Assembly (NCBI RefSeq): GCF_000786105.1
Contig: NZ_JTEV01000006.1
Coordinates: 80,410 to 144,409, forward strand
Origin: Bdellovibrio sp. ArHS
Lineage (GTDB): Bacteria > Bdellovibrionota > Bdellovibrionia > Bdellovibrionales > Bdellovibrionaceae
Reading direction: 5' to 3'
DNA: 64,000 nucleotides
Shown: one piece after another, positions 30,317 through 47,371 of the stretch
How positions within the stretch are numbered: position 1 is the first letter of the stretch
How the letters are laid out: each line of letters starts with the position of its first letter
Program-made: the position numbers and the translations under genes
The notes under the pieces: generated by a model
What the model was told of the DNA's origin: nothing
What the model saw: the letters and a program-made list of their open reading frames with translations, nothing else
The model's database searches: none

Positions 30317-30453
30317 AGGAAGACTCCCGTTTACGATTTGCCCTAATCTCGCATAAAAGAGCCTGCCTCGCCAGATCTGAGATCACACCGGGAATCTTAT
30401 TTAGGATTGACTGTGTTTATGACAAAGACACGGCCGTAAAAGCTTTTACGGGA

Positions 30454-30729: not shown

Positions 30730-30805
30730 TGCATACCTCACTTTGTCTTCTCATCGACAGCATCTTCATTTTATAAAGAAAATTTGAGGAGTTGCGGGAA
30801 CAATC

Positions 30806-30827
30806 TGTGTTTCATGATCGAAACACA
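30806..30827. promoter_or_regulatory. Operator-like palindrome 4
   Basis: Arms TGTGTTTC / GAAACACA (perfect; nine bp with the flanking C and G), 22 bp in all. It lies upstream of the small secreted-protein gene at 30729 and just past the stop of the giant lipoprotein gene. Confidence 0.72.
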
Positions 30828-30844
30828 GGATGCTTTATCGTCTA

Positions 30845-33800
30845 TTAATATCCTGGGCCTGACCATCCCCAGAAGTGATACTGACTGGCCCCTTTGACCG
30901 CCACAAATCCTGAGTCGGTGCTATAGATTTTTTGAACTCCGGAAGCCAGTCCCGGCGAGTTCCCTTGCGTGTAATCTTCTACCTGGCCCCAGGTGACGAC
31001 TGAGCCGTCGGATTTTAAAGCTGCGAATCCCCTCTTGCTAGTCGCAATGTCGATCACTCCCGAAGTCAAGGAACCACCACGCGCCCCATAGGTCACCGAA
31101 GTATGATCTCCTCCTGTCGCCGGTTTTCCCCATGTGACGACTGAGCCATCTTCCTTTAACGCAGCAAAGGCCCCGTCACCATTCGGGAAAAGCTTCACCA
31201 CTCCAGAGGTCAGCGTTCCTCCCTTATTCGCGTAGCCTGATTTCAAATGATCACCCCCAGCACTGTCACTTCCCCAAGTGACAACGGATCCGTCGGACTT
31301 CAAAGCCGCAAAGGCGCCGTTACCAACATTATCAGAACCATCCAATTCCGAGTTTTCGTAAATATGGACAACCCCCGAAGTTAAAACGCCACCCTTTGCC
31401 CCAAAGAAAGTGGGATGAGTGTGATTTCCACCCAATGAGTTTATTCCCCAAGTCACCACAGAGCCATCCGCCTTCAAGGCGGCAAAGGCACCTGCTTTGT
31501 TGGCAAATATTTTTATGACTCCACTATCTAGGGTGCCGCCGTTGGCGCCGTAGCCGTGAACCACATCAGTGTGATCACCGCCATAACTAGCGGTTCCCCA
31601 GGTCACAACAGAGCCATCGGATTTCAATGCCGCAAACGCGGCATAGGTGGCAACGATCTGCTTCACTCCACCTGTGAGTGCTCCTCCCTTGGTACCATGG
31701 GTCGCATTTGTGTGATCTCCTCCAGACCACAGATCTCCCCAAGTGACAACCGAGCCGTCGGACTTCAGTGCAGCAAAGCCGCCCAATTTATTAGAAAAAA
31801 TTTTAACGACGCCTGAGGACAGGCTTCCACCCTTTGCCCCGTAGGTTGCATGGGTATGATTTCCCCCGCGAGTTGGGGCCCCCCAGGTGACCACGGAGCC
31901 ATCTGTTTTGATGGCTGCAAATGCTTCTTCACCACTGTAGATGGCTTTGACCCCACTTGTGACGGTTCCACCTTTCACGCCAAAAGTTGCATGCAGATGA
32001 TCCCCCCCAGTATCTATTAATCCCCAAGTCAGAACAGAACCGCCAAGCTGTAGCGCAGCGAAAGAAGTCGCATTGTTAAATATTTTGCTTGCACTTAAAG
32101 CTCCTCCTGACGGAGCCACTTCACATCTATATACTGAGTCATCTTGGCCTTGTGAACCGTCGGCCTGCCAACGAATAATGGCGTTCGTTTCGGTTATGGC
32201 AGCCCCACACTTTTTCGCACCGTAAACTCGTATCACTTGAGTACTTGGATTTTTAAGTGCAGGGTCTAAGTAGGCAAATGAACTTCCCGATCCGGGGTCC
32301 TCCCAAATATCTACGTAACCGTCAGGACGAAGAAACGCATGCCCCCAAATTCCATCACCCATTTTTGCGATACTTCGCGAGTCATAGGTCCACGTCACCT
32401 CGGCCGCATTTCCTGCAGCATCCTGAAGCTGAACTTTCAAGGGTAAATATCCCGAGTAAATGAATTGTGCTTCCCAACGTCCTCCCTGGCATTGTACTGG
32501 GGCTACGGGTTGAACATAACTTCCGACAAAGGTGATTGTCCTGCCCTCTTCGGAACATCCGCCTTCGATAACCAACCGACTATTGAGATCATCGTCTTGC
32601 TCGCCCGAAGATTTAGAAAAAATACTTAACTTGGGCGGCGTGGAATCCTCGGTGAATGCTCCCGCATACACACAGTTGGACTTATTTCCCGCGGCATCTA
32701 CAATTTGCACATACAAGTGGGTTGTCGTGTTGGCGGGAACAATTGTTCCTTTAGAGAAATCTCCAGAAGAGTCAACAACGCCTGAAGTGAGCTCTGCCGT
32801 ACAAATAGCATTCGAATATACTTTAAAATTAGCCAATGCTTCCGCATTTCCGCTGACCACCGGGTTTCCTTTGGCTGGCGAAGTCGGAGTTACCGACATA
32901 TTCTGTGGATCGCCCGGGGGAACATTGTCGAAGACAACACTTAAGATGTTCGAGTCTGAATTGAAATTCCCATAGTCGTCTTGAGCTTTCCCGGACGATA
33001 ACTGCAACTGCACGTTACCGACGGCCGAGGGAACGACATTGAAAGTAATTTCTTTTTTATCTAACGAGGGCGTCCACATTTCAATAGTGGCATTCGTCAC
33101 TTCAAGATCTTCTTTCACAATATCGGTTGTACGCGACATTTTAAGAGAGACCGGAAAAGCCCCAGCAACGTGGGTTCCCGTTACCTCGGTTTCTAAAGTC
33201 GCAGATACTGATCCCGCCAGATAGTCCACCGTTAGCCAGTTGGAGGCGGTATTGTAGTTACTAAATTCGTCTTGTGCCTGATCTTCGGCGTAGTAGACTT
33301 TCACAGGGATACCACTGCTGATAGGGTTGATTGTGAATCTGTATTCATCGTCAGATCCACTCAAAAAAAGTCGCGTCCCATTGGCGACGTGAACATCTGC
33401 GCTGACAAAGCCAGTCACTTTCTTGGAAAACTTGATGGTGACGTCGAACATTCCATTCGTTTTGTCGCCGGCGTCCGTCGTAATTGTCACCGAGGGCTTT
33501 TCAGAATCATACTCGCGGAACAATTGATTCCCAGAGACGTTGAAATTTCCGGCTTCGTCCAATACTTTACCGGCATCCACTTTGATACTCACCGATCCTT
33601 TTAAGACAGGCGTGATACTTACATTGTATTTGCCTGCGCCTAAGTCCACAAGCCCGCCCACAACACCATTTTCAACAGAAAAATCCGATGCGAGAAGCTC
33701 TTGAATAGGCTCCCCGAAATCGACCGTCACAGCAATGGGGGATGCATTTGTCTTCGCTGAAACCAAGGAGGTGATCGTCGGCGCAGGCGCTGTTCGATCC

Positions 33801-34459
33801 AAAAGAACAGACTTGTTCACACAGTTGGAAGTATTGCCAGCTCGATCTCGAATTAACACCGAAAGATTTTTATTTCCATCAGTAACATCCGAAAGCGCGA
33901 ATGAACTAAGACTCTGAAAAGACTTCCACGGACCGGTCCCACCACAGCCTGCGCCCTCAGAAAAAAGAACCTCATGAATATCGGTCGCGCTGGAAATGAT
34001 TTGGACCGTCGGTTCTGTGATATTAATTTTCGCTTTGCCGCCGGCAACAACAACATTGTCAATGACCGGAGCTTGTGTGTCCTTGGTCACTGGAATAACC
34101 ACGCGATCACCCGTTTTTGGGTGTTCAAGGTCGGTAATCACCTCAATGGTTCCGTCAGGTGTCATTGGGTCAATGGAGACTTCAACCTGCCACTTTCCAT
34201 CTTTACACTGCACGGTTTTTTTGGGCGGAGGATTCAAAATTTCAAAGGATTCCAGTCCCTCTTTGCAGGAACCATCGACCGTGACCGTATTTGGATTTTG
34301 AATATTGATGACGGGCTCTGAAGTCCAGCTAATCGGCAACTTATTAAGACTCTCAGAACTTACAAGAGTCGCATCCAATGAACATCCTACCAACGGCAAT
34401 GCGGCCACCGTTTTTAATAAGATACCCATCGATTTTAATAAATTGAATACCCCGCGCAA
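30845..34459 (-). CDS. Giant lipoprotein with Ig-like domains and RCC1-like repeats
   Basis: A 1204-residue lipoprotein, lipobox LPLVGC (Cys about 26). The TTG at 34459 has AGGGAG upstream and is preferred to the ATG at 34429, which has none. Residues about 40-700 hold Ig-like modules of the bacterial adhesin type (segments such as TVDFGEPIQELLASDFSVENG and KFSKKVTGFVSADVHVANG). Residues about 790-1190 hold eight RCC1-like repeats of about 45-58 residues with the core FAALKSDGSVVTWG and GGDH…GAKGGSLTSGV, plus a degenerate last unit. RCC1-like repeats form propellers that bind proteins. It diverges from the QNC lipoprotein at 34746 across palindrome 5. Surface adhesin is the likely role. Confidence 0.82.
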   Translation of the reverse strand: MRGVFNLLKSMGILLKTVAALPLVGCSLDATLVSSESLNKLPISWTSEPVINIQNPNTVTVDGSCKEGLESFEILNPPPKKTVQCKDGKWQVEVSIDPMTPDGTIEVITDLEHPKTGDRVVIPVTKDTQAPVIDNVVVAGGKAKINITEPTVQIISSATDIHEVLFSEGAGCGGTGPWKSFQSLSSFALSDVTDGNKNLSVLIRDRAGNTSNCVNKSVLLDRTAPAPTITSLVSAKTNASPIAVTVDFGEPIQELLASDFSVENGVVGGLVDLGAGKYNVSITPVLKGSVSIKVDAGKVLDEAGNFNVSGNQLFREYDSEKPSVTITTDAGDKTNGMFDVTIKFSKKVTGFVSADVHVANGTRLFLSGSDDEYRFTINPISSGIPVKVYYAEDQAQDEFSNYNTASNWLTVDYLAGSVSATLETEVTGTHVAGAFPVSLKMSRTTDIVKEDLEVTNATIEMWTPSLDKKEITFNVVPSAVGNVQLQLSSGKAQDDYGNFNSDSNILSVVFDNVPPGDPQNMSVTPTSPAKGNPVVSGNAEALANFKVYSNAICTAELTSGVVDSSGDFSKGTIVPANTTTHLYVQIVDAAGNKSNCVYAGAFTEDSTPPKLSIFSKSSGEQDDDLNSRLVIEGGCSEEGRTITFVGSYVQPVAPVQCQGGRWEAQFIYSGYLPLKVQLQDAAGNAAEVTWTYDSRSIAKMGDGIWGHAFLRPDGYVDIWEDPGSGSSFAYLDPALKNPSTQVIRVYGAKKCGAAITETNAIIRWQADGSQGQDDSVYRCEVAPSGGALSASKIFNNATSFAALQLGGSVLTWGLIDTGGDHLHATFGVKGGTVTSGVKAIYSGEEAFAAIKTDGSVVTWGAPTRGGNHTHATYGAKGGSLSSGVVKIFSNKLGGFAALKSDGSVVTWGDLWSGGDHTNATHGTKGGALTGGVKQIVATYAAFAALKSDGSVVTWGTASYGGDHTDVVHGYGANGGTLDSGVIKIFANKAGAFAALKADGSVVTWGINSLGGNHTHPTFFGAKGGVLTSGVVHIYENSELDGSDNVGNGAFAALKSDGSVVTWGSDSAGGDHLKSGYANKGGTLTSGVVKLFPNGDGAFAALKEDGSVVTWGKPATGGDHTSVTYGARGGSLTSGVIDIATSKRGFAALKSDGSVVTWGQVEDYTQGNSPGLASGVQKIYSTDSGFVAVKGASQYHFWGWSGPGY
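30900..32085 (-). repeat. Tandem RCC1-like repeats (about 150 bp each)
   Basis: Eight full copies and one degenerate copy of a ~150-bp unit encode the RCC1-like part of the lipoprotein. Adjacent copies share stretches such as AAAGCCGCAAAGGCGCC and GTGACAACGGAGCC variants on the plus strand, so slippage or recombination that changes the copy number is possible. Confidence 0.75.
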
Positions 34460-34570
34460 ATACTACTCCCTTCGCATTTATGGAAGCGACCCTTCCTATT
34501 GGAACCACTCATGCTTATCGGGGGCCCGCTAAAGGATCTCGAGATCAATTGTCTTTTCGGTGGCCTTTTC

Positions 34571-34591
34571 TGTGTTTTTCGCGAAAACACA
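34571..34591. promoter_or_regulatory. Operator-like palindrome 5
   Basis: Perfect 8-bp arms TGTGTTTT / AAAACACA with five bases between (21 bp, one base shorter than most copies), flanked by C and G. It lies between the divergent giant lipoprotein (34459) and QNC lipoprotein (34746) genes. Confidence 0.72.
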
Positions 34592-34745
34592 GATTTATTC
34601 ACATATTTAGAAAATCTTGAGTTCGATGCCAGCGACAATCTCTATGTTTTTTCTTTAAGACACATTATCGCTGAAAGACCATCTTCAGACTCATGAGGTG
34701 CTCTCCGAAAAGCCAGACTCGGACCTGATCCGAGGGGGGAAAAGT

Positions 34746-35369
34746 ATGAAAGAAGGATTTAAATGGGCTCTTACTGCAGTCTCAGTATCTGTTTTAATTT
34801 TGTTTTATCAAAACTGTAGCAATCCAGGATTTGAAACCCTCAGCCAGTCTTCACTGTCTATGAGCGGTGACTCCTTGATCGCACGCTCCTCAAAAAATGA
34901 TGAAGCGCTCGCGTCTGCAAACTCTGCTGCTTCTGCCGCGAAGTTGAATTGTCCTTCTTTGGCCTACAATATTGCTGTCTGCCAAAAGGTTCAGCAAGAG
35001 GTCGGAGATACGTGCCGCATTGTCAGCAACTCGGGTGTGATTCTTCACGTCCTTCAGGGAAGCACAACCATGACTGATATCACAATTAACTGTACAGCTG
35101 TGAATTCTCCTACAACGACAGTGGAAGTCACACCCGCCCCGGGACAGTCTGGCGTCGGATCCACGGTGATTTCAGATCCCGGCTCAACGGGTAAACCAAA
35201 AAAACTTGTGTGCCCTTCACTGACTTTGATGATGGAAAAGTGTGCCATCGTCGTGAGAGACGTCGGTGATACTTGCCGAATCTCCAGTACGGAAGGAGCT
35301 CTACTGTATACACTTCAAGGCCACAACGGGCAAACCACGGATATCTGGACACCTTGCCATCTAGAGTAA
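34746..35369 (+). CDS. QNC-type lipoprotein with two Cys4 repeats
   Basis: 207 residues from the ATG at 34746 (GAGGGGGGAAAAGT upstream). The lipobox is LFYQNC (Cys about 24), followed by S-N-P-G-F. A spacer leads to two repeats of about 50 residues, at about 78-130 and 155-206, each with four Cys: C.SL…C..V…VGDTCRI.S..G..L..LQG…TDI…C. The unit resembles the single Cys module of the lipoprotein at 20127. A terminator-like hairpin follows. Family not recognised; surface or periplasmic binding role only guessed. Confidence 0.78.
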   Translation: MKEGFKWALTAVSVSVLILFYQNCSNPGFETLSQSSLSMSGDSLIARSSKNDEALASANSAASAAKLNCPSLAYNIAVCQKVQQEVGDTCRIVSNSGVILHVLQGSTTMTDITINCTAVNSPTTTVEVTPAPGQSGVGSTVISDPGSTGKPKKLVCPSLTLMMEKCAIVVRDVGDTCRISSTEGALLYTLQGHNGQTTDIWTPCHLE

Positions 35370-35383
35370 AGAAACTGGATTGA

Positions 35384-35413
35384 TTGGAAGGCGTAGCTCT
35401 AAGCGCCTTCCAG
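35384..35413 (+). terminator. Stem-loop between the two lipoprotein genes
   Basis: Stem GGAAGGCG / CGCCTTCC, extended by two to three weaker pairs, with a ten-base loop. The following T run is short, so it may be a weak terminator or an RNA-stability hairpin. Confidence 0.5.
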
Positions 35414-35456
35414 TTATTCGACTAAAACAACCAAAGCTTATAAACGGGAGTTCTTC

Positions 35457-37385
35457 ATGCGTCGTCTCAATTTAGGGTCCCACATCGTCCCCGCTCTCGT
35501 TGCGGGCTCCTTTATTTTTCTTCTTACTAGTTGTTTGAATGGCAAATCGGACAAGAAGTCGCAGAAGACTGAAGAGGCCTTCAGATATTCTAAAGTCGAA
35601 ATGTCTTCCTATTCGGTTAGCCCTTCGAGTGTTGAGATATTGCAAGACCCCAGACTGACTTTGGGAGTCGCGCATGGTTTTGCAAACACCCTCTCAGAAT
35701 TTCGCAATTCTGAATGTTCAAGAGCCTGGGATATTAAATTGCCTTCGTTGATGCAAGCCCCTTGGTTGTTCTGGGAGATTGCCGAAAAAACTTATTTCTG
35801 CGACAACGCTTCGTCTCCGCAGATTCGAGGTCGCGAAATTTCCTATGCCTCTGCGGATCTCTCTAAACGCTTTATCATTCCGAATGACTCGAGCGAGGGG
35901 GCCTTCCGGATGATTTACGACACTTCGAAAGAATGGCGCAAGGGTTGCAACCTATCAAAACCCGATGGAAATCTGCTGCCGCGCTACCCGCATCCTGCCA
36001 CCCAATGGCCTCACTTTTTAATCGGCCAACTTTTTGAAGACCCCCGTCAGCCTCAAAAAAATCTTTGGCTGAATGCCGGGAAAAAATACACTCTTCGCGC
36101 TTCCGTCCGTTTAAATGAAAGCCAAAGAATGATGGTTGAAAACTGCCCACAAGGCAGTTGGCCAACACCTGGAAATGGCGACGAAACCCATCAGATTTTT
36201 TACATCGCTCTTATTCTAAAACATAAAAACCATCCTCGTCACATTGGGACTAAGATCAATGTCAACCAGATCTATGCCCTCGCACCTGTGTTTTACTCTC
36301 CCGATGGCACCAACCACTTAGACGTAGGTTCCTGGGTCGATTCGGATCAATTTGGCAACGCCGTTCATTTTGCCCCAGGCTATCCTCAGCTTCGACGAGG
36401 TTCCTGGGTCGACGTGCAAATAGATGCGGATGCAATGACCCAAAGCGCCTTGAATGCCATTCAAGAAAAATATGGCGAGACTTTAAGACCCGATGATTAT
36501 CACGTCCTCGGAGTTTTAATTGGATGGGAGATCTGGGGCGGCTTTAAAAATGATATCGAAGTTAAAAATCTGTCGTTTCAAGCCACCGACAGCCCCCCGC
36601 CTCCTCCTCCGTCTTCGGATCCTTCATATGGAACAATCTTAGGACATATCGACGGTCTGAGCTCTTCTGGTTCGAACTATACGGTGAATGGTTGGGCTTG
36701 CGGCAAATCCGCTGCGACTTCGATCCCGGTTCATCTCTATTTAGGCGGCCAGGCCGGCACCGCGCAATCTATTTATGCCGGAGCTTATCAAGCTAATCTC
36801 TCCAGCGAATCTGCGATCTCGTCTTTATGTGGAACTCAAGGCATCCCTCATCGTTTCGCAATTCCGGTGAGCAAAGCCCTCGCTGAACAACATGCGACGA
36901 AACCGCTTTTTGTCCATGGCATATCGCCCTCGGGTCGACCGAATGCGATGATTGGGAACTCGGGGAATGTATTATTGCCCCCGCGCGCAGAAATTCCTCC
37001 ACCGCACGCGCCGACGCCTGATGAAGACAGCGGAATCATTCGAGGCTTTATCGATGGCATTGAACACTCCGGCACCCAACGTGCTCTAGTAGGTTGGGCC
37101 TGCGGAACGAAAATTTCAACACCGATTCAAATTCATCTTTATGTGGGATCTTCGGCGGGTACTCCCGGAGCAACTCTGATCGGTGGTTACACCGCCAATC
37201 AACCTAGCGAACCTGCGGTGGCCCAAGCTTGCGCTTCCGCTGGTAACGCTCATCGTTTTAAAATTCCTTTGAGCGCAGAATTATCACAGCGACATGCTGG
37301 CAAACGAATTTACATACATGGCATTTCTCCGACGGGAAAAAGCAACGACTTGCTAGGAACCTCGAAAGAGCTTTTCGTTCCCTAA
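35457..37385 (+). CDS. Lipoprotein with two C-terminal GWAC repeat domains
   Basis: 642 residues, lipobox FLLTSC (Cys about 22). A ~290-residue central part (about 90-375) is beta-rich with a jelly-roll look (LNAGKKYTLRASVRL, SWVDVQIDAD), then a Pro linker (PPPPPPSSDPS). Two homologous domains of about 115 residues follow (about 395-515 and 525-640), each with G.IDG…GWACG…HLY.G…C…HRF.IP…H…HGISP.G..N. Each has two Cys. I cannot name this domain family. GGGAG precedes the ATG. Possibly glycan binding; not proven. Confidence 0.72.
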   Translation: MRRLNLGSHIVPALVAGSFIFLLTSCLNGKSDKKSQKTEEAFRYSKVEMSSYSVSPSSVEILQDPRLTLGVAHGFANTLSEFRNSECSRAWDIKLPSLMQAPWLFWEIAEKTYFCDNASSPQIRGREISYASADLSKRFIIPNDSSEGAFRMIYDTSKEWRKGCNLSKPDGNLLPRYPHPATQWPHFLIGQLFEDPRQPQKNLWLNAGKKYTLRASVRLNESQRMMVENCPQGSWPTPGNGDETHQIFYIALILKHKNHPRHIGTKINVNQIYALAPVFYSPDGTNHLDVGSWVDSDQFGNAVHFAPGYPQLRRGSWVDVQIDADAMTQSALNAIQEKYGETLRPDDYHVLGVLIGWEIWGGFKNDIEVKNLSFQATDSPPPPPPSSDPSYGTILGHIDGLSSSGSNYTVNGWACGKSAATSIPVHLYLGGQAGTAQSIYAGAYQANLSSESAISSLCGTQGIPHRFAIPVSKALAEQHATKPLFVHGISPSGRPNAMIGNSGNVLLPPRAEIPPPHAPTPDEDSGIIRGFIDGIEHSGTQRALVGWACGTKISTPIQIHLYVGSSAGTPGATLIGGYTANQPSEPAVAQACASAGNAHRFKIPLSAELSQRHAGKRIYIHGISPTGKSNDLLGTSKELFVP

Positions 37386-37710
37386 TTTAAAACGACTGGA
37401 TCCTCTCACTTAAACAACGCCTGGCTTTGCGCCAGGCGACGCTCACAATAGGTCCCGGCCTTCACTGTCAGACTGTCAAAAGTCGTTCGCCGCCAGGACA
37501 AAATCGACAAAAAAGACCTACGTTAAATATTCACTTCGTTGGAATCCAAAGGCGAAAATCTTCCCACAAGAAAACTGACCAGAAAACTCCTTGGGCCTTG
37601 TCGAAGCATGGAATTTAGTGAGGTGGTTGAGGCGAGCGTCCCTGCTGAGCGCAGCATTGGACTAAGACGTGCTGCTATCAGAAGACTGTCTTCCGATAGC
37701 AGCGGATTGG
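37386..37710. other. Intergenic stretch between convergent lipoprotein genes
   Basis: This 325-bp stretch holds two hairpins and no convincing gene. The first is GCCTGGC / GCCAGGC at 37419-37437, shortly after the gene at 35457. The second, much stronger one is at 37671-37703. Short open frames here have no ribosome site. Confidence 0.6.
37671..37703. terminator. Strong hairpin after the QNC lipoprotein gene
   Basis: Arms GCTGCTATC-A-GAAGAC and GTCTTC-C-GATAGCAGC: 15 of 16 positions pair, with almost no loop. It lies 8 bp past the stop of the reverse-strand lipoprotein gene. It lacks a T run on either side, so Rho-independent termination is doubtful. Confidence 0.55.
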
Positions 37711-38847
37711 TTACGAACACTGACACGTAAATACGGTCCCACGATCATTCGTGGCTTTGGCTCCCTTATTCGCCGTACTACAAGAGGCCGTGGGTGAGGA
37801 CTCTGGACCAGCTACAATTCCTGACCAAGAACATCGCGTTCCTGTCGATCCTCCGTAATTTTTTGACCCGATCGCACAATCACCATAGCCAGGGCGTTTG
37901 ACCACGATATTCGCGGACTGAAACACTTTACCTGTCGCCGGATCACGCACAACGGTGCGATAAGTTCCCGGGACGATCACGGGGTTTCCGCTCAAGTTAA
38001 AAACGGCTGTCGGATGTGTGAATGTTCGTGTCGCTGAATTGTAAGACCACTCAGGAAACAGATATCTAAACTTAGACGCGGAATCACACTTGAAGCTCTC
38101 TCCATAGCGAGGGTGTCCAGGTGGCATATCCAACGTATACTCAGAACAAACCTGAACATCCATAGGCGCGTTTTGGACCGTTTGGTTGATGATCGCCGCT
38201 CCGGCCAAAGAGCAGTCCACACGAGCGGCTTCGGTTGAAGCTCCATTCACAACAATACCAGATTGACAATGCCCGAATCCGGTTCGTTTCACCAGAATTT
38301 CTCCTGAACGAAAAATTTCTCCAGTATGATCGCGAACCACAAGCCAATAGCTGCCGGGAACAATGGTATCATCATCGTTCACCTTATAAGGTGTTCGTGT
38401 GGACCACTGCCTTAATGAGGCGTCATAACTCCACTGATCCAAATTTGGTGCCGCAAACTTTTCAGGTCGATCACAAAAACTTTGTTCATTATATCGAGGA
38501 TGCCCTGCCGGCATATCCAAGATATATTCCGCACACACTGAGATCGACGAAGGAGCATTTTTAATCACCTGATGGATTTCGGAGCCCGCTTTAGAGCAGT
38601 CCTCTTTAGCTACGGCCGTCGAAGACGCTACCACTTGAATTTTATTTGTTAAGCTAGGTTCAGAATAATACCCTCCGGAGGAGTATCCTGGCACCGAAAC
38701 TCCCCCTCCACGAGCAAAATTCGACGATGATGCGGATAAGGCAGCGCCTTCCGTATCAAAACCTTGCGAAGAACAGTTTTGAAAAGCCACGACTATTCCT
38801 GAGACCGCGACGACAGCCACGGTGCCCTTTACAAGACGACTCGACAT
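37711..38847 (-). CDS. QNC-type lipoprotein with two Cys4 repeats of another type
   Basis: 378 residues; lipobox VVAFQNC (Cys about 25) then S-S-Q-G-F. After a Ser/Gly spacer come two repeats of about 125 residues (about 78-200 and 208-330): DCS.AG…NAP…VC.EY.LDMP.GHPRY…CD…WSY…IVPG.Y..VVRD..G..F.S..I.VKR.G.G.C, four Cys each. A short tail has four more Cys. Ribosome site AGGGGGATGTA. It lies directly downstream of the pilin-like gene at 38970, and palindrome 6 lies in the 122-bp gap between them. Function unknown. Confidence 0.8.
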   Translation of the reverse strand: MSSRLVKGTVAVVAVSGIVVAFQNCSSQGFDTEGAALSASSSNFARGGGVSVPGYSSGGYYSEPSLTNKIQVVASSTAVAKEDCSKAGSEIHQVIKNAPSSISVCAEYILDMPAGHPRYNEQSFCDRPEKFAAPNLDQWSYDASLRQWSTRTPYKVNDDDTIVPGSYWLVVRDHTGEIFRSGEILVKRTGFGHCQSGIVVNGASTEAARVDCSLAGAAIINQTVQNAPMDVQVCSEYTLDMPPGHPRYGESFKCDSASKFRYLFPEWSYNSATRTFTHPTAVFNLSGNPVIVPGTYRTVVRDPATGKVFQSANIVVKRPGYGDCAIGSKNYGGSTGTRCSWSGIVAGPESSPTASCSTANKGAKATNDRGTVFTCQCS

Positions 38848-38917
38848 TACATCCCCCTACTTACTTGCATTTTATCGGCTCGACCTTCGCCCGCCAGAAG
38901 AGACCGGCAGATGAATC

Positions 38918-38940
38918 CGTGTATTTCGGAACAAAACACA
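38918..38940. promoter_or_regulatory. Operator-like palindrome 6 (imperfect)
   Basis: GTGT-N13-ACAC with T-rich and A-rich inner arms; spacing is one base longer than in most copies. It lies about 80 bp upstream of the QNC lipoprotein start, which suggests that this gene has its own promoter. Confidence 0.5.
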
Positions 38941-38969
38941 ATTTCACTCTTTTTCTTGATTTCACTGTC

Positions 38970-39938
38970 TCAATAGCGAACATACCATCGCGTCGGAACA
39001 GCAATACCTGGGCAGCCATTGGTGTTGGGCTGATTGACAGGACTACAATATATACTTCCATCTGTTCCAAATCGTGCCGAAGCAGCGCCAATAAACGGAT
39101 TCATTTCACCGGCAAATCGAACCGGGCTTAGACAGTAAATAGTTTTGGTAATACCTGATCGATACGCCTGCTGACACAATTCATTTCTATCCGAGGCCGT
39201 CACTCCAGGTCCGGTCACTTTTACGTCAGCACCTTCGCCAATAGCCTTTTCAAATTCTTCAAACTTTCCAAAAACAGTTCCGCCGGATTCCGAATTTTCA
39301 TAGATCAGATGCCAGCGTCCGTCTTGAAAACAAGCGGCCTTTGATGGCCATCCTTTCGCGGCAAAATCCACACAGGTCGGCGAGTAGACACCCTGAGCTG
39401 TGCCTTGGGTCGGTTCACTTAAACGGCTGCAACTGACAATCTTTCCTGATTCATCCGTCGCCAAATGCAAAGGGACTGTGCGATTCATATTAATGCTCAG
39501 ACCCGACTTTCCTTTTACACCAAGATCAATGGAACCTAAATAGCGATTGGCCCCGAGCGCGCTATCAACTTTGAAAGCAATACTTTCTACGCTCAGAATA
39601 TTCTGATAAGGTTTGCCAACTTTGATGATCTCTTTAGACCCCAGAGCCCCACTGGCACTGACATCTTTGAAAACGACGTTGTTTTCGATGACCGCCGGCA
39701 GTGAGCCCGGCACCTGTTTCCCGGCAAAGTGTAAATTGCAGTAAGTCGGATCGCCAAGCATTCCGGAAATCTGAACAGCCAAATCCTCAGCGGCATAAAA
39801 GCTTCGCGAATGTGACATGCTGTCAATTCCGCTGGAGACGGCCGTCGCGATGCCGGCGACCAACATAGATGAAATACCGACAGCCAGCATAGTTTGCACT
39901 AGTGTGAAGCCTTTGTTATTTATCTTCGCCATCGCCAT
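38970..39938 (-). CDS. Prepilin-like protein with Gln at position +5
   Basis: Start at the ATG at 39938 (AAGGAG six bases upstream). 322 residues. The leader ends at Gly10 and the mature part starts FTLVQTMLAVG, with a hydrophobic helix to about residue 35. As in the protein at 26154, Glu5 is replaced by Gln. The globular part is large for a pilin and has about eight Cys, mostly in the last 120 residues. Large non-Glu5 pseudopilins are tip proteins in type II secretion and type IV pili, so a tip role is inferred. It precedes the QNC lipoprotein gene on the same strand. Confidence 0.82.
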   Translation of the reverse strand: MAMAKINNKGFTLVQTMLAVGISSMLVAGIATAVSSGIDSMSHSRSFYAAEDLAVQISGMLGDPTYCNLHFAGKQVPGSLPAVIENNVVFKDVSASGALGSKEIIKVGKPYQNILSVESIAFKVDSALGANRYLGSIDLGVKGKSGLSINMNRTVPLHLATDESGKIVSCSRLSEPTQGTAQGVYSPTCVDFAAKGWPSKAACFQDGRWHLIYENSESGGTVFGKFEEFEKAIGEGADVKVTGPGVTASDRNELCQQAYRSGITKTIYCLSPVRFAGEMNPFIGAASARFGTDGSIYCSPVNQPNTNGCPGIAVPTRWYVRY

Positions 39939-40015
39939 CTTTATCTCCTTGAGCAACATCTAAAGAATCTACTCGGCACAAAAATGAGGCCTCTAGATTG
40001 CCTATTCTTCATTTT

Positions 40016-40038
40016 CGTGTTTTCAAAAGATACACACT
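40016..40038. promoter_or_regulatory. Operator-like palindrome 7 (imperfect)
   Basis: CGTGTTTT…ACACACT; GTGT and ACAC are 11 or 13 bases apart depending on which ACAC is used. It lies about 88 bp upstream of the pilin-like gene start at 39938. Confidence 0.5.
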
Positions 40039-40175
40039 CAAAGAAGTCGGAGCTGACTCAAAACAGAACAATCAGCTGCAAAGGTTCGAAAAAGTTATGT
40101 GCTAATAAACGGACGAGGGGCCACTAAACAAGGCAGGGGAAAACATGCCGCAGTTCCCCCCTTTAATTGAACTAG

Positions 40176-40556
40176 CTACTTTTGCACATTATAGTAAGGA
40201 ATTTCAATAATAGATCTAAAGCCATTTTTTGTTGTCATTGAAAGAACAATCTTCCTTAAAGACTCGATCATCTTTCCTTGCTTGCCCAATAAATGCCCCA
40301 AACTTTTTTGCGAACAGTTCACCTTAAAGATGGTTGTCTTTTCCCCATGTACTATTTCAACACCAAAGCCGGAAGTGTCGGGCAATATTCTTGTGAGAAT
40401 ATCTTCTAGAATCGTCTTAACTTCTTTAGAGTATTCTGTTCTGCATATGCGATTTGTTGAGGCCGTTTCATTGAAATCTTCCATCTGAGTCTCTTTCGAA
40501 CTCCAAGAACTCGCGTCCTTCTTTTTTACTATTCGGATTACCGGTATGGCAGACAT
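40176..40556 (-). CDS. KH-domain RNA-binding protein (KhpA-like core with N-terminal extension)
   Basis: 126 residues. The C-terminal ~80 residues have the single KH-domain pattern of KhpA-type proteins, with the RNA-binding GxxG loop in LGHLLGKQGKMIESLRKIV and a following beta strand. The N-terminal ~45 residues are polar and not conserved-looking. KhpA-type proteins bind RNA broadly and are normally housekeeping genes beside rpsP; here the gene stands alone in the accessory island with palindrome 8 upstream. A strong GGGGAGGGG ribosome site precedes the ATG. Post-transcriptional control of the island is possible but only inferred. Confidence 0.78.
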   Translation of the reverse strand: MSAIPVIRIVKKKDASSWSSKETQMEDFNETASTNRICRTEYSKEVKTILEDILTRILPDTSGFGVEIVHGEKTTIFKVNCSQKSLGHLLGKQGKMIESLRKIVLSMTTKNGFRSIIEIPYYNVQK

Positions 40557-40650
40557 TGCCCCTCCCCTTCATTGACAACTTACACACAAGTAATGTTATC
40601 GGGAGATTTGAGGGTCTCGATAGATTTTTGGCGTCACCTAGATCTTGTTT

Positions 40651-40672
40651 CGTGTTTAAAGTAAAAAACACA
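40651..40672. promoter_or_regulatory. Operator-like palindrome 8
   Basis: CGTGTTT…AAACACA, GTGT-N12-ACAC type, 22 bp; outer GTTT/AAAC extends the symmetry with one offset. It lies about 105 bp upstream of the KH-domain gene. Confidence 0.6.
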
Positions 40673-40781
40673 AACAAGCGACGTCCTTCATAAGACGCCG
40701 CCATCGACACGATCCACTCCGAAACTTATTCACAAATTCAAAAAAATCCTTCATGGTTTGTGAACCCGCCCTTCTATCCCC

Positions 40782-41585
40782 TTAGGGGGTCGGACATTTG
40801 TTGATCAATCGGGATGTAATTCCCTTTCTTTTCAATAAAGCTTTTGCCGCCGTCGCTACATGTGAATTTGATTTATTCAGTCGTTCAAAAACACAAGACA
40901 TCATCAAACCACCGTAGTCCTGTCTGGGGACCTGCTCTAGAGTAGCCTCGAATATCACCAACCATTTTTCAGACAAGATATTCCCGTGTGGCAAAGAACC
41001 AGCCATCCAGGATAGAGCATCCACTGACGAGTTCTGAAAATATCGCCCCAACGAACTCGACAAAAAGATTTTCCATCCGTCCGTTCGAGATAAAAATAGC
41101 TGCTCTTGGTCGGCCACTTTAAACAAATTTATTAAAGACCGTCGGCGAACGGCATTAGCCAAATTGACTAAATATTCAGAAGTCTCATAGTTCCCATCCA
41201 GAATACCCATGATCGGAAGGTATTCATGGATAACAATCTGTCGAAGAGAAATTGATCCTGAGTAGGTTCGCCATAACGACTCATTGATTTCAACCAGGGG
41301 TGGATTTCTTGAAGGATGATTGATTGCAATCACTTCGAATCCATTCCATAAAAGCTTTTCCCGCAATACAACCTCAGTATTCGAACCGGCGCTCTGCCAC
41401 TGTGTTTTAAAGTTTTCATTCGGCGAAAACAGAAATGATGGGACCACATCAAAATCTCGATTCAGCTCTTCACGCAAGCTATGAAACTCTTGCAGAACAA
41501 CGTTTCCTCCGTGTGTTTCATGTCCTGCGAATGACGATTCATAAAAAAACAGAACACTCGCGATCAAAAATATTTTTTTTCTCAT
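40782..41585 (-). CDS. Secreted protein of unknown function
   Basis: 267 residues: signal peptide about 1-20 (SVLFFYESSFA), mature start GHETHGGNVV. A segment IVIHEYLPIMGILDGNYE carries an HE pair like the first half of a zinc-protease motif but lacks the second His, so enzymatic activity is not claimed. The C-terminal half is helical with two Cys (MSCVFE, NKCPTP). GAGGAG precedes the ATG. No family named; similar HE-x5-G segments occur, as far as I recall, in other secreted Bdellovibrio proteins. No TGTGT-type palindrome is seen in its upstream region. Confidence 0.68.
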   Translation of the reverse strand: MRKKIFLIASVLFFYESSFAGHETHGGNVVLQEFHSLREELNRDFDVVPSFLFSPNENFKTQWQSAGSNTEVVLREKLLWNGFEVIAINHPSRNPPLVEINESLWRTYSGSISLRQIVIHEYLPIMGILDGNYETSEYLVNLANAVRRRSLINLFKVADQEQLFLSRTDGWKIFLSSSLGRYFQNSSVDALSWMAGSLPHGNILSEKWLVIFEATLEQVPRQDYGGLMMSCVFERLNKSNSHVATAAKALLKRKGITSRLINKCPTP

Positions 41586-41747
41586 TCACAAACTCCTCGT
41601 GAAAAAGAGTCTATAGGCTGACGAAATAAAAAAACAATATGAATAATCCAAGGTCCGGAATGCAGCATTCAAGCTTGGAAAAATGACTCAAACAATGTCT
41701 ACTGAAAATAGTTGATCTTTAAAAACTATATTGATGCCGGAATTTTT

Positions 41748-42560
41748 ATGAAAAATGTTAATAGCTGTGTAGAGAATCCCAACGACAACTTTGTAGAGAA
41801 ACTAAAGGAAATTTTCTCCCGTCGCTCAGAAAAGAACTCTAAATACTCTCTTCGCGCATTCGCGCGAGATCTTCAAATAGAACCCAGTCTTCTTTCCAAA
41901 ATCATGCGCGGTCTGTACCCTCTCACGGAAGCAATGCTGCAAAGAATCGCGCGACGCTTGGGCTTGTCCGAAGAAGAGATCGCGAACCTCGTTCAAGAAT
42001 TTCGCTTACAAAATAAAGCTCTTGAAGAAGGGAAGGCTGAAAAAGCCAACACTTTTTTTCCAATAGCTATCGACCATCTTAAGTATATTTCCGAAAGCTA
42101 TCACATTGATTTATTGGCGCTGATCGAAACGGTCGATTTTAAAAATGATATTGGTTGGATTGCAAATAGACTGGATCTATCAGAAGAAAAAGTGAAAGAT
42201 GCATTCGACAGACTTGTTCGCCTCGGATATATCGTCCTGAACGAACAAAAGGTCACTTTGGGTAAACCACAATATTCCACGTTGGGGTTCCCTTCCACAA
42301 GTGACTCATTAAAACAGATGCAAGCGACTTCTTTAGAACAGGCTATAAAGGCATTATTCAAAGTTCCTCTAAACGAACGCAGTCAGTCCACGCTCACTTT
42401 TGCGGTGGACATGAAATTGATTCCAAAAATCATCGACGAAATAAATAGCTTCCGCCGAAAAATTAACAAATTAGCTTCCGTCGAGGGAAAACGCCCCACT
42501 GAAGTCTATCACCTTTCTTTATCGCTTTATCCGGTAACCACTAGAAATAATCGTCGATAA
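41748..42560 (+). CDS. TIGR02147/DUF4423-type DNA-binding regulator, second copy
   Basis: 270 residues from the ATG at 41748 (weak CCGGAA ribosome site; a TTG at 41712 is the alternative). N-terminal helix-turn-helix (YSLRAFARDLQIEPSLLSKIMRG…TEAMLQRIARRLGL) and the family core (DLLALIETVDFKNDIGWIANRLDLSEEKVKDAFDRLVRLGYI) align with the regulator at 21325, and both end with a TEVYxLSLxLYPVT-type segment. The two regulators bracket the lipoprotein-pilin island. Target sites unknown; the shared palindromes are candidates. Confidence 0.83.
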   Translation: MKNVNSCVENPNDNFVEKLKEIFSRRSEKNSKYSLRAFARDLQIEPSLLSKIMRGLYPLTEAMLQRIARRLGLSEEEIANLVQEFRLQNKALEEGKAEKANTFFPIAIDHLKYISESYHIDLLALIETVDFKNDIGWIANRLDLSEEKVKDAFDRLVRLGYIVLNEQKVTLGKPQYSTLGFPSTSDSLKQMQATSLEQAIKALFKVPLNERSQSTLTFAVDMKLIPKIIDEINSFRRKINKLASVEGKRPTEVYHLSLSLYPVTTRNNRR

Positions 42561-42749
42561 AACGATCAGCATACAATTCGAGAAATTTATATTGGGGTCG
42601 GCTGAGGTTCTGGCGACGGGGATCTAAGTACGCCATCTGCCTAGGAGCGAACAAAAGCCCCTCTATCTCGGGCCTATTTTGTCTTCAGCCATCAAGATTC
42701 GACAGCAAAAATCCGAAGTTCTGAACATATTCTGGTACTGGAGGGCCCG

Positions 42750-44222
42750 TTGCTCAAACTTTTTTGGAAGAATCGCAGCATCCATTCGAAACTCATCATT
42801 CTCTGTCTATTCTCCATCCTTCCCTATTGGCTGTTCATGAGCCTGTACCTAATGCCTTTGATTTTTCAAAATAAGATGCAGGACAGAAAGAATAGCCTCA
42901 CAAAGGTCATCGACATCGTCACCTCAGAGCTTCAAGTCATTCAGAAAAAAGAAAAAACAGGACTGCTTTCAACTGAGCAAGCCCAGAATGCTTTCAAAGA
43001 ACTTGTTCAAGCCCACCGCTATGCTGACAAAGAATATATCTGGATTCATGATCTTTCAGGCACCATGCAGTTACATCCAATAAATACAAAACTTAACGGC
43101 ACTTCGATTCTTGCGATGAAGGACCCCAATGGAAATCCTCTTTTCCAAAAAATGAACGAGATCGTCAAGAAAGATCAGGCCGGATTTCATGAATACTTAT
43201 GGCCCAAGCCCGGTGAGGAACAGCCCCAGCCCAAGCTCAGCTACGTCAAGCTGGACCCTCACTGGAATTGGGTTCTGGGGACGGGAGTGTATATTGATGA
43301 TATCAATAAAGAACTGAACTCTTTGAAAAAAAATGTCGGCCTTGTCTACACAATCATCTCGGTTTTTTCGTTGGGGCTCTTTTATCTACTTTCATCAAAC
43401 CTAGTCCGCAAAATCGACCAACTGAGTATCGACGTCGCTGCGACCAGCATTCAAATCGAGGGAATCAGCCAGTCCATTTCTAAATCTGGAAAAGAAGTGA
43501 ATCTGAACACTGAGAAATCAAACGAAAATATTCAATCCAGTTTGGCATCGCTCAAAATTTTGCAGGAGATCTCTGAAAACAACCGGGCGCAATCTCACAA
43601 TGTGGTCCATCTTTCCAAAGAATCTGAAATGGCCGCTAAGTCAGGCTACGACAAACTTCAGGAACTCAATCAGGCAGTAAAAGATCTTTCGCAAACCAAC
43701 GAAAAGGTGATCGATTCCATGGCTGTTATCGACGACATTGCATTCCAGACTAACTTACTGGCACTTAACGCGTCTGTCGAAGCCGCTCGCGCCGGTGAAG
43801 CAGGGCGCGGTTTCGCGGTCGTCGCCGACGCTGTCAGATCACTTGCCTTGAAGTCTGCAGAAGCCGCAAAGGATGTCAGAACGGTGACGGAAGAGTCCAA
43901 GATTAAAACAGAAAAAAGCGTCCTTCTAGCTGAACAAGGCATGAGCGATCTAAAATCCATTTCAGATTCTTTTGTTCGCGTCGTCGAAATTAATCAAAAA
44001 ATCGCCTTGGCTTCGGATCAGCAAAACGAAGGTGTCGGCCGGATTGAAAATGACATTCAAAACGTCTCCGCAACCATGGTCGACTTCGCCAAAAGCGCCC
44101 AGGAAACATCTGTGAATTCCTACGAGCTGTCGGCGTATTCAAAGGCCGTAATCAAACAGATAAATAAAATGACTGTGCAACTTATTGGCAAACTCCCAGA
44201 AAGAGACCTCAAGCATGACTAG
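42750..44222 (+). CDS. Methyl-accepting chemotaxis protein, single-Cache sensor
   Basis: 490 residues from a TTG start with GGAGG five bases upstream. Membrane helix about 15-35, a periplasmic single-Cache domain (about 40-195; [34 protein letters not shown]), a second helix about 198-215, no clear HAMP, and the signalling domain with the conserved hairpin tip ([40 protein letters not shown]). It senses small molecules and feeds the CheA/CheW array. It is followed by an overlapping bacteriohemerythrin gene, so an oxygen link is likely. Confidence 0.93.
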
Positions 44223-44613
44223 AAATTTCAACTTCCAGTGGGACGACTCTTTGGTTATTGGTGTCGATACGATGGATCAGGATCATCAGAAGCTGATTCA
44301 GCTAATGAATGAGGTCTATCGTCTTTTCAAGAAAAATGCAGCCCATTCTGATATTGAAAAATCCATGGACCAATTAGGTGATTTCGTGGTCGAGCATTTT
44401 CAAAGAGAAGAAAGGTACTTCGATTCTCTGCCTGACTACGAAGACGGTCTTATTCACAAAGCCATCCACAAAAAATTGCTGGCACGATATTCTTCATTTC
44501 TTGAGGAATTCAAAAAGGGAAAAGAGATCAAAGAGGATTTTTTCTATTTCCTCAAAGCCTGGCTAGTGGCGCACATCGAAGGCGTTGACGCCAAATACGC
44601 CGAACACCCCTGA
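44215..44613 (+). CDS. Bacteriohemerythrin
   Basis: 132 residues from the ATG at 44215, which overlaps the end of the chemoreceptor gene by eight bases. The hemerythrin ligands are visible: [44 protein letters not shown] and [12 protein letters not shown], which supply the five His and two acidic ligands of the di-iron site. Such proteins bind oxygen and can store it or deliver it to a sensor. Overlap with the chemoreceptor gene suggests a shared role in aerotaxis or oxygen sensing. Confidence 0.92.
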
Positions 44614-44644
44614 GCGAAGTCTCGATTGCGTGAATAACTAAAAA

Positions 44645-47371
44645 TTAAAAGTCGTAATAGATAACAACACGGCCGGGGATTCCCGCCGTTCCTCTGAACC
44701 CGCCGACACCCGCAGTTCCTCGATCTGCGTCGGCCATATTGCCGGGATTCCGTCCTGAACCTGGCAAGGTTGATCCATTTTGAACTCCGGCGATGTAGGA
44801 GGATCCCCCGCCTCCGCCAGAGCCAATGGAACCACCTCCGCCACCGTAATATCCTCCACCGCCACCAGCAATACCTGTGTCGCCCATGGCTCCGTTGGCC
44901 CCTTGAGCAAAGGCCCCGGAAGGACTCGTGCCGAAATCTGCGCTCGATGCTCCCGCACCACCTGACGATTGACTTCCTCCCTTAGCCACATTGACGAAGG
45001 CCTCCATACCTCTTCCGCTGACTCCCGTTGTTCCGCCGCCGGGCCCGCCGTTATCCCCGCCCACCGCATTTTCAGAACCGACAGATCCGCCGCCACCGCC
45101 GCCAGCAACTAAAACACGCGACAATAAGGTCTGATCTCCGAGTCTAATGTCAGAGGCTCCGCCACCACTTCCGCCATATCCGCCTCCAGATAAATCATAA
45201 ACTCCTCCGAAGCCGCCCCCGTTCCAAGCGCTGCCACCTGGGGCCGCTGATCCACCAACAAAAACGTAGAGTGTTTGACCAGAATACACATTCAACTCGC
45301 CGGTCGCGTACCCGCCTCCTCCGGCATTCCCCCCAAGGCTCATTCCGTACATATCTCCACCACCGGTGCCGCCGGCGCCCCACGCTTTGATGGTCACTTT
45401 CGTGCAGCCGGTGGGTTGAGTGAAGGTTTGCACGGCTCCGGTGTAATTGAAGACGACTTTTCCCGGAACGCAGTCGACGATGGATAAATTTGCTTCGCTG
45501 GTGTTGCCTAAAACATCAGTGACATTGACAACGGCCGCCCCGGTAACAGCAGGCGCCGTATACAGGCCGGTGACGGAGGCCATACTTCCGGCACCACTGA
45601 TTAGAGAATAAATGTAGGGTGCGACCCCGCCTGTTGCTGAAAAAGATTTTGTCGTGTTGATATTCACGGAGCTTGATGAAGGTGAAATCGCCAACGCCGC
45701 GTTCACAGTGACCGAGGTTGTCGCGACGTTCAGCAAAGCATCTGTTACTTTGATCACAACGACCCCCGCACTACTCGGAGTATAAAGACCCGTGCTGCTA
45801 TTTACTGTGCCAGCACCGGATTGAATCGCATAGACATAGGGGGCGAGCCCCCCACTTGCAGTGACTGTTAATGAGTTGGTGGTCGCAATAAGATTGCGAT
45901 CTGCATTTAAAGAAAGTGGCGCCACTAACGATACAGACGACGAACTTGTATTTCCCAAGGCGTCCGTCACCGTCACGTGACCACTGCCAATCGAAGATCC
46001 GGCAGTGAGTGTCCCGTCGCTTGCGACCGTTCCTTGATCTGAAGAATACGTATAAGGAGGTACACCACCACTGGCGGAAAATTGAAAGCTTGTCTGTGTT
46101 ACCAAAGTTTTCGACGCGGGTGAAAGACTGAGCGCGGGATTGACAGTGACGATGGCCATTGCGGTGTTGCCTAATGCATCCGTGACTGTCACCGTGTCTG
46201 TGCCACTCGTCGCAGGTGCCTCGTAATTTCCATGATTATCGATACTTCCCAAAATCGCATTATAAGAATAAGAAGCGACACCTCCAACGCCAGAGAACGT
46301 CCTGCTATTGCCAACCGCCAAAGAAGTCGACGCGGGAGTGATTTGCAAAGAGGGATTGACTGTCAACTGCGCTTCACTAGTGTTCCCTGCCGCATCTGCC
46401 ACCTGCACAAGTAAAGTCCCGACACCTGTAGCCGTCACCGTTGTTTGATCTGCCGCTGAACTTAAAACTCCCGAACCACTTGAAATTGAAAAAACATAAG
46501 GTGCAGGCCCTCCCGAAGCGGAGAGAGTGAATTGGTTGCCCACAGCGATGGTCGCTAAAAGAGGATTGATCATCACCCCTTGCTGAACTTGCACCGTCGC
46601 TTCAGCTGTGTTGCCGAGAGCGTCCGTAACAAGAATCATGGTAATGGTCGCACTGGCTGGCGCCTGATAGGCCCCCGTGACAACACCCAATGTTCCATCG
46701 CCAATCAACATAGAGTAGGAGTAAGGAGGAACTCCATCGACCCCTTGAAACTGCGTGTGTGCCAAAGTCCACATTGTTTCAGACATGGGACTGATTTTCA
46801 GAGGAGAATTCACGGTGATATCCTGAAGCACCGTCGTCCCCGCCGCATCCGTCACGGCAATTGTGCTGATGCCCGTGTAACCTTGGGGACTATAAAGTCC
46901 CGTCGTCGGATCGATGCTGCCGCCTCCGGATAAAACTGTGAACTTAGGATGACCAATGCCGCCTGTCGCGGTGAAGGTATGATTGTTATTGGCCGCAATC
47001 ACCACACTGCCTGAAGTGATTTGCAAAGGAGGCTTTACGACAATTTCAATGACGATGGCCTGTCCACTGCTATCGGAAATTTGGATGAGCGTTGTGCCCG
47101 GATTTGTGGGCGCGGTGAATTCTCCCGTTTGCGGATCAATGCTGCCTTCGCCAGAAAGAATCGTGTACACGTAATGTCCCTTACCGCCTTCGGGATGCAG
47201 ACTGATACGATCTCCGATCACTACTTCGGGAGTCGTTTGCTCCAACGCCACCTTAAAAGCTGGAAGCGTCGAGATAAAGTCGGCAGACATCTGCCCACAG
47301 CCCCACAAACCTATTGCGAGTATCGCAATGAGACAGCCTTTAAGAAAGGAAGAACCTCCAGAACGTTGCAC
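44645..47371 (-). CDS. Giant lipoprotein with Ig-like repeats and glycine-rich C-terminus
   Basis: About 908 residues from the GTG at 47371 (GGAGG four bases upstream); a TTG at 47386 is the alternative and the start is uncertain. Lipobox IGLWGC. About eight or nine Ig-like units of 70-80 residues (to about residue 640), each like FSASGGVAPYIYS…GSG…TGLYTAP…VTDALGNT. Then a Gly-rich domain of about 270 residues (TVTIKAWGAGGTGGG type, many GGG runs) of the kind found at the ends of surface proteins. Probably an adhesin or surface scaffold. The upstream region has only a half-like copy of the palindrome. The Ig-like unit matches those in the lipoprotein at 22696. Confidence 0.8.
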   Translation of the reverse strand: MQRSGGSSFLKGCLIAILAIGLWGCGQMSADFISTLPAFKVALEQTTPEVVIGDRISLHPEGGKGHYVYTILSGEGSIDPQTGEFTAPTNPGTTLIQISDSSGQAIVIEIVVKPPLQITSGSVVIAANNNHTFTATGGIGHPKFTVLSGGGSIDPTTGLYSPQGYTGISTIAVTDAAGTTVLQDITVNSPLKISPMSETMWTLAHTQFQGVDGVPPYSYSMLIGDGTLGVVTGAYQAPASATITMILVTDALGNTAEATVQVQQGVMINPLLATIAVGNQFTLSASGGPAPYVFSISSGSGVLSSAADQTTVTATGVGTLLVQVADAAGNTSEAQLTVNPSLQITPASTSLAVGNSRTFSGVGGVASYSYNAILGSIDNHGNYEAPATSGTDTVTVTDALGNTAMAIVTVNPALSLSPASKTLVTQTSFQFSASGGVPPYTYSSDQGTVASDGTLTAGSSIGSGHVTVTDALGNTSSSSVSLVAPLSLNADRNLIATTNSLTVTASGGLAPYVYAIQSGAGTVNSSTGLYTPSSAGVVVIKVTDALLNVATTSVTVNAALAISPSSSSVNINTTKSFSATGGVAPYIYSLISGAGSMASVTGLYTAPAVTGAAVVNVTDVLGNTSEANLSIVDCVPGKVVFNYTGAVQTFTQPTGCTKVTIKAWGAGGTGGGDMYGMSLGGNAGGGGYATGELNVYSGQTLYVFVGGSAAPGGSAWNGGGFGGVYDLSGGGYGGSGGGASDIRLGDQTLLSRVLVAGGGGGGSVGSENAVGGDNGGPGGGTTGVSGRGMEAFVNVAKGGSQSSGGAGASSADFGTSPSGAFAQGANGAMGDTGIAGGGGGYYGGGGGSIGSGGGGGSSYIAGVQNGSTLPGSGRNPGNMADADRGTAGVGGFRGTAGIPGRVVIYYDF
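45470..47236 (-). repeat. Tandem Ig-like repeats (protein level)
   Basis: About eight units of 210-240 bp encode the Ig-like domains. Recurrent phrases on the protein level are GGVxPYxYS, TGLYxxP and VTDALGNT. Copies are diverged as DNA. Confidence 0.7.

Follow-up and report, generated by a model that had tools for sequence, protein, structure and literature searches.

The gene pair called module B, a pilin-like gene (pilin B) lying directly upstream of a lipoprotein gene (lipoprotein B), belongs to a genome-specific island of surface-protein genes, most of which share one palindromic DNA element, in the window analysed here (the whole stretch of 64,000 nucleotides from Bdellovibrio sp. ArHS). 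We hold with moderate confidence that module B is a cassette of a strain-specific, co-regulated surface island with a likely part in prey or surface recognition. The evidence, as read from the sequence, comprises the two genes, the swapping of heads on a common pilin stem, the recurrence of the pair outside the genus, and the island with its palindromes. A strain-specific surface block that shares one DNA element in most of its genes suggests a replaceable surface kit, perhaps aiding prey recognition, and the sharing of a putative operator across such an island is the new point of this analysis.

The island extends from a DUF299 gene to an MCP gene (Table 1) and is absent from five congeners, in which these two genes lie 0.9-2.5 kb apart as against 27.5 kb in the window. 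Module B and a second pair, module A, lie wholly within it, and its genes encode four QNC lipoproteins in all, one lipoprotein of the LamG/Calx-beta and one of the RCC1/Ig type, a glycine-rich/SprB protein and two regulators, each of which carries both an HTH and a DUF4423 domain. In the RCC1/Ig lipoprotein (30845-34459, -), RCC1-like repeats come after bacterial Ig-like domains, with seven-copy repeat DNA at 30987-31927. The glycine-rich/SprB protein, an exported protein of 913 aa with an ALK/LTK glycine-rich domain and a SprB repeat, is encoded next to the right end of the island (44645-47386, -). A KhpA/B-type KH-domain protein (40176-40556, -) with a palindrome of its own is unexpected company within this surface island. 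A classical tRNA-integrated element was rejected as an account of the island, there being no tRNA gene in the window, no integrase among the ORFs checked, and a GC content like that of the flanks, with no clear contrast.

Table 1. Features of the window (positions count from its first letter).
Feature	Position	Strand	Remarks
Genome-specific island	20131..47633		DUF299 gene to MCP gene
Palindrome	21209..21230		between QNC lipoprotein 20127-21152 (-) and DUF4423 regulator 21325 (+)
DUF4423 (TIGR02147-type) HTH regulator	21325..22101	+	candidate palindrome binder; 84 bits vs cut-off 30
Palindrome	22652..22673		upstream of 22125-22604 (-)
Palindrome, perfect	25510..25531		TGTGTTTTTTAAAAAAAACACA; between LamG lipoprotein (-) and 25663 (+)
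Module A Q5 pilin-like gene	26154..27029	-	
Module A QNC lipoprotein	27087..28358	-	Cys4 repeat of different family
Palindrome	28437..28458		upstream of module A lipoprotein (-) and protein-kinase gene (+)
Palindrome, weaker	30412..30432		upstream of 29939-30316 (-)
Palindrome	30806..30827		upstream of 30454-30729 (-)
Palindrome	34571..34591		between RCC1/Ig lipoprotein (-) and YQNC lipoprotein 34746 (+)
Palindrome, second, weaker	34645..34664		upstream of YQNC lipoprotein
Intrinsic terminator-like site	37418..37438	-	downstream of lipoprotein B
Module B QNC lipoprotein	37711..38847	-	two Cys4 repeats (predicted Ig-like) and C-terminal CxWSG...CxC segment
Lipoprotein B repeat 2 (Cys4)	37876..38256	-	
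Lipoprotein B repeat 1 (Cys4)	38266..38643	-	
FliA-type -10 box, exact match	38872..38879	-	GCCGATAA; 24 bp before lipoprotein B ATG
Palindrome	38920..38940		TGTGTTTTGTTCCGAAATACA; 72 bp upstream of lipoprotein B start, in intergenic gap
Module B pilin-like gene	38970..39938	-	modular pilin; mature start F-T-L-V-Q
Head domain X	38973..39383	-	~137 aa, Cys-containing
Pilin stem	39414..39938	-	leader, hydrophobic helix and beta-sheet module
Palindrome	40016..40036		TGTGTATCTTTTGAAAACACG; 77 bp upstream of pilin B start
Terminator-like site	40135..40162	-	between KH-domain gene and module B pilin
Palindrome	40651..40672		upstream of KH-domain gene 40176-40556 (-)
Second DUF4423 HTH regulator	41712..42560	+	no palindrome in front; 115.9 bits vs cut-off 30

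The first-pass annotation had described a Q5 pilin-like gene directly upstream of a QNC lipoprotein, and both genes are present as described. The ORF of pilin B spans 38970-39959 (-), and its translation start is likely the ATG at 39938, which is closely preceded by the ribosome-binding site AAGGAGA. Between the two genes lie 122 bp, in which a search for a terminator-like site found none. The leader of pilin B, MAMAKINNKG, is followed by FTLVQTMLAVG, and the short charged leader ending in G and the hydrophobic helix (MAMAKINNKG/FTLVQTMLAVGISSMLVAGIATAV) are those of a class III signal peptide. The Pfam N_methyl match is weak (13.6 bits, below the curated cut-off of 21.2), and a 40-position profile of pilin N-termini (A1) matches at 50 bits, a score that is partly obtained by construction, pilin B having been among the rows of the profile alignment. 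The Glu expected at position +5 of a type IV pilin is replaced by Q. Since E5 is required for normal pilin assembly, the stem of pilin B may therefore not enter a filament.

Multiple alignment delimits a stem of about 175 residues that is common to seven loci in six of 66 genomes, all seven scoring above 220 bits with the stem profile (A8) and the next best match 52 bits. Two mutually unrelated heads occur on this one stem: head X at five of the seven loci (the window, G034, G016, G062:C44 and G033) and head Y at the other two (G062:C19 and G061:C74). Head X is furthermore found without a stem, behind a Sec signal peptide and next to a QNC lipoprotein (G016:C130), so that pilin B consists of a pilin module and a separate, variable extra module. 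At that stemless locus (L295 1-998) the QNC lipoprotein that follows the secreted head itself begins a head X, and the contig ends there. Judged from these alignments, domain exchange acts at the level of the pilin head domains. The pilin fold of the stem is predicted from a structure model with a long helix (13-62) and a beta sheet (82-172), for which the best match, itself weak, was the XcpGHIJK pseudopilus (Z 5.8, 107 residues, 3.3 A), followed by weak matches to a Thermus competence pilin (Z 4.4) and to PilB, the modular minor pilin of S. sanguinis (Z 3.5); Foldseek alone, run on the same model, returned no pilin. Head X (residues 185-322) is modelled with low confidence (pLDDT mostly 30-80, falling under 50 over the second half); it lacks a Pfam match and a known fold, and searches of the sequences of solved structures with head X and with the lipoprotein repeat gave no match.

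The signal peptide of lipoprotein B ends in FQN-C, which differs from the classical lipobox [LVI][AST][GA]C; xQNC recurs after signal peptides across this bacterial group, and FQNC precedes the repeat in every homologue whose gene start was read. Lipidation at this site is predicted. The two repeats, of about 125 aa and four Cys each, are 46% identical, and no significant Pfam match was found for the protein. Homologues, in one other genus of the family and in a second family of the order, carry the repeat once per protein. Foldseek matched the low-confidence model (mean pLDDT 54) to tandem Ig/FnIII pairs, including those of SiiE and RbmA (E ~1e-4, prob 0.9-1.0), and the repeats are accordingly predicted, from a weak model, to be Ig-like.

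Module A shows the reversed gene order and the different Cys4 repeat that had been described, and the pairing is indeed seen twice. The two modules are nevertheless not duplicates, since their lipoproteins are unrelated (lipoprotein A was not among the matches when lipoprotein B was used in a family search, nor B when A was used) and their pilins are alike at the N-terminus only (26% over 87 aa, E 9e-4). Genome-wide counts, which rest on profile searches and on the stretches read, were obtained by running pilin N-terminus and QNC signal-peptide profiles on nine genomes of the genus. In the window's genome, three of the 11 QNC lipoproteins have a pilin-like gene no more than 2.5 kb away, where 0.25 would be expected (Poisson P 0.002), the third case being a convergent pair on contig C16 (L148 3921-5072/5116-6009). 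In the eight congeners, by contrast, the figure is 1/73 for 0.93 expected, and the enrichment is thus a feature of the window's genome; a genus-wide rule of pairing is rejected. The view that two pairs within 13 kb were unlikely by chance hence holds as over-representation in this genome, but it fails among congeners, and modules A and B are not independent events, as they share one island holding four of the genome's QNC lipoproteins. The repetition is explained by one putatively co-regulated island, not by two independent modules.

Nor does Q5 mark the pair: across eight genomes, 94 of the 131 pilin-like genes carry E at residue 5 and 33 carry Q, the latter being about a quarter of the total and including long orthologues with no QNC neighbour. 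In the family of the module B pilin, Q, S, P and E all occur at this residue. QNC neighbours accompany 3/33 Q5 genes as against 1/94 E5 genes, a borderline difference (P 0.054). Among the pilin-like genes of the genus are conserved sets of a Q5 protein of ~920-1000 aa with two small E5 pilins (L143 2497-6739; L142 2404-6610), orthologues of which occur in congeners (L236, L243, L247, L252, L264 and L268).

The expectation that further pilin/QNC neighbours would be found was borne out by the convergent pair on contig C16, by G062:C116 and G021:C1:2874770/2876001, by the secreted head X of G016:C130 and, above all, by G062:C19, a locus of another genus in which homologues of both module B partners are adjacent in unchanged order. 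Altogether, three of eight loci with stem B or head X adjoin a QNC lipoprotein, for 0.05 expected; with the window excluded, two of seven do, for 0.045 expected (P 0.001 under a simple Poisson model that assumes 3400 genes). A scan of genome contigs for relatives outside the family gave a single match, Bdellovibrio sp. MAG_58 (JABWCO010000007.1), which matches G016 and belongs to the window's genus. Co-variation of pilin head and lipoprotein repeat was not seen, one repeat type accompanying head X in the window and head Y in G062. The proposal of interchangeable specificity modules is thus upheld for the pilin heads and for whole island cassettes, but not for fixed combinations of pilin and repeat.

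Since the island collects exported proteins, many other lipoproteins among them, the module B genes could be neighbours for that reason, as functionally unrelated accessory surface genes that do not cooperate. This account, which we regard as possible though rather doubtful, agrees with the lack of enrichment in congeners, with the separate palindrome of each gene, which makes a single operon unnecessary, and with the fact that most homologues of either partner stand alone (pilins in G034, G016:C177, G061:C74 and G062:C44; lipoprotein B homologues in G061:C3, G061:C27 and G062:C7). It does not sit well with the preserved pair of G062:C19, with the return of head X beside a QNC lipoprotein in G016:C130, or with the observation that all three family-f1 genomes carrying the lipoprotein B repeat also carry the rare pilin stem.

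Minor pilins are known to be paired with exported partners, as in CofB/CofJ, TcpB/TcpF and the minor pilins with PilY1, and a closer form of cooperation would have pilin B and lipoprotein B form such a tip complex, the pilin carrying the lipoprotein to the tip or through the outer membrane. Module B resembles these pairs in that a pilin gene with a large head adjoins, from upstream, the gene of a second exported protein, an order kept in G062:C19, and the non-E5 residue of pilin B has its counterpart in tip subunits such as GspK; the partner, however, has a putative lipobox, unlike CofJ or PilY1, and is predicted to be a lipoprotein whose Ig-like repeats stand in tandem, machinery genes are absent beside module B, and adjacency is only occasional, the partner missing at most stem loci. 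We consider a tip complex unlikely.

The reading of module B as a cassette of a co-regulated island draws on the palindrome TGTGTTTT-N4-6-AAAACACA, of 20-22 bp. Each transcription unit between 20.1 and 40.7 kb has one about 40-155 bp ahead of its start, both module B genes having their own. A repeat search of the window gave five copies, from which a weight matrix was built. With this matrix, 11 sites reach at least 16 bits, all of them at 20.1-40.7 kb, and all 14 sites of at least 12 bits fall inside the island; the rest of the window, 36.5 kb, has no site of at least 16 bits, and Markov shuffles yield about one such site per 64 kb. Counted as TGTGTTTT-N6-AAAACACA with at most three mismatches, there are ten matches in the window for 0.53 expected. 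Among the sites outside the training of the matrix, six of eight are intergenic, as against 11% of intergenic sequence (P 4e-5). The island units at 40.8-47.6 kb have no palindrome in front, and one site of at least 16 bits occurs in ~244 kb elsewhere in the same genome. Elsewhere, in other loci that add up to ~1.7 Mb with overlaps counted, the matrix scores highest at two places, in G061:C27 and G030. The top-scoring site (G061:C27; L285 12123-12144) lies 97 bp upstream of a lipoprotein B homologue in another genus, and the surrounding 57 kb that were read yielded no DUF4423 gene. The G030 site (G030:C138; L300 2586-2609) has an 8-base spacer and falls within a coding gene; a lipoprotein A homologue follows 1.2 kb downstream of it. 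Upstream of the G062:C19 pair there is no palindrome of at least 15 bits.

These palindromes are predicted to be operators. A reading of them as CRP sites was rejected: such a site is TGTGA-N6-TCACA, and the spacing here (TGTG-N14-CACA, from 25510) is unsuited to it. A DUF4423 HTH gene diverges from a QNC lipoprotein gene across the first palindrome, and by its position this regulator is the most likely binder, which would place module B under its control; a general link between DUF4423 genes and QNC lipoproteins was rejected as weak, only five of 30 being within four genes. Binding by a silencer or stress repressor directed at AT-rich promoters of recent acquisition, in place of a dedicated regulon, would account for the AT-rich centres of the palindromes and for their confinement to the island, but it is quite improbable given the conserved arms TGTGTT/AACACA, the fixed length of 20-22 bp, the placement 40-155 bp before starts, the flank-like GC of the island and its palindrome-free units at 40.8-47.6 kb. 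We would tentatively go one step further than a co-regulated island and propose that it might be a dedicated, transferable recognition regulon, in which one DUF4423 regulator would govern a full set of non-homologous surface proteins by way of a private palindrome, pilin heads and lipoproteins passing between scaffolds and strains with the operator kept and the surface changed as a unit. That the operator is kept during exchange between strains is suggested by the presence of the same site before the lipoprotein B homologue of G061.

Under the model of a co-regulated surface cassette, operators before all units at 20.1-40.7 kb would be bound by the DUF4423 HTH protein whose gene adjoins the first of them, and module B would encode two exported surface proteins acting at the same time and place. 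The stem of pilin B, bearing an exchangeable Cys-containing head, could become part of a type IV filament or a pseudopilus or sit at its end as a cap, and lipoprotein B would be anchored in the outer envelope by its lipid, its two Ig-like domains stabilised by disulphides. The pilin head and lipoprotein B might then serve as adhesins, either as alternatives or in cooperation, and differences between strains would arise through the exchange of heads and of entire cassettes. Surface display and adhesion are presumed here, and a role in prey recognition we infer solely from family, location and organism. For the variation of prey recognition in Bdellovibrio-type predators, the known repertoire comprises, besides MAT fibres, a small number of adhesins. 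With one putative operator in common, a strain-specific surface block offers a defined, deletable unit with a candidate regulator, and a pilin family in which heads have been swapped and residue 5 altered offers a natural test of modular pilin display.

The timing of expression may be compared with that of known attack-phase genes. The box GCCGATAA is the -10 element of the FliA promoters that control most Bdellovibrio attack-phase genes (PMC3627812). The predicted promoters of module B resemble these in the exact box before lipoprotein B. Exact boxes occur in the 150 bp upstream of 8/143 pilin-like and QNC genes as against 7/1426 other genes (12-fold, P 1.5e-5), an enrichment drawn from the loci read, in which several pilin cases are mutually orthologous. 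They differ in that the -35 match of lipoprotein B is poor (TTCTG for TTAAG), that pilin B lacks a good FliA-type box and that the palindrome is a separate element. Because of the poor -35 match, attack-phase expression of lipoprotein B is a suggestion only. In several genomes, a FliA-type -10 box precedes a pilin gene of the L143/L142-type sets.

Among known surface proteins of these predators, lipoprotein B is comparable to the lipobox MIDAS adhesin Bd0875 of Bdellovibrio, a lipid-anchored surface adhesin with disulphides (PMC11003981), features that are predicted or presumed for lipoprotein B; unlike Bd0875, it shows no vWA/MIDAS domain in a Pfam search. The MAT fibres of Bdellovibrio are predator surface proteins that exist in many paralogous forms and are diversified through tip exchange (PMC10769870), and module B shares with them the exchange of tips on what is presumed to be a predator surface protein. 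The scaffold is a different one, with neither S74 domain nor trimeric beta-helix, a Pfam search of both module B proteins having given no S74 chaperone or beta-helical fibre match. MAT-like fibre genes adjoin other Q5 pilin/QNC loci of this genome, not module B; loci with large MAT-like genes are L148 3921-9777, L132 7084-11381 and L151 1771-7998. Lastly, modular (bimodular) type IV pilins such as PilB of Streptococcus sanguinis consist of a small pilin module and a bulky extra module (PMC8179133). Pilin B is set apart from these by a head that is not a vWA or other Pfam domain, by Q, S or P at residue 5 in several members of its family and by its lipoprotein neighbour. In its combination of a pilin module with an extra module that varies between homologues, and in its weak fold match to PilB, it fits the modular pilins described (PMC8179133).
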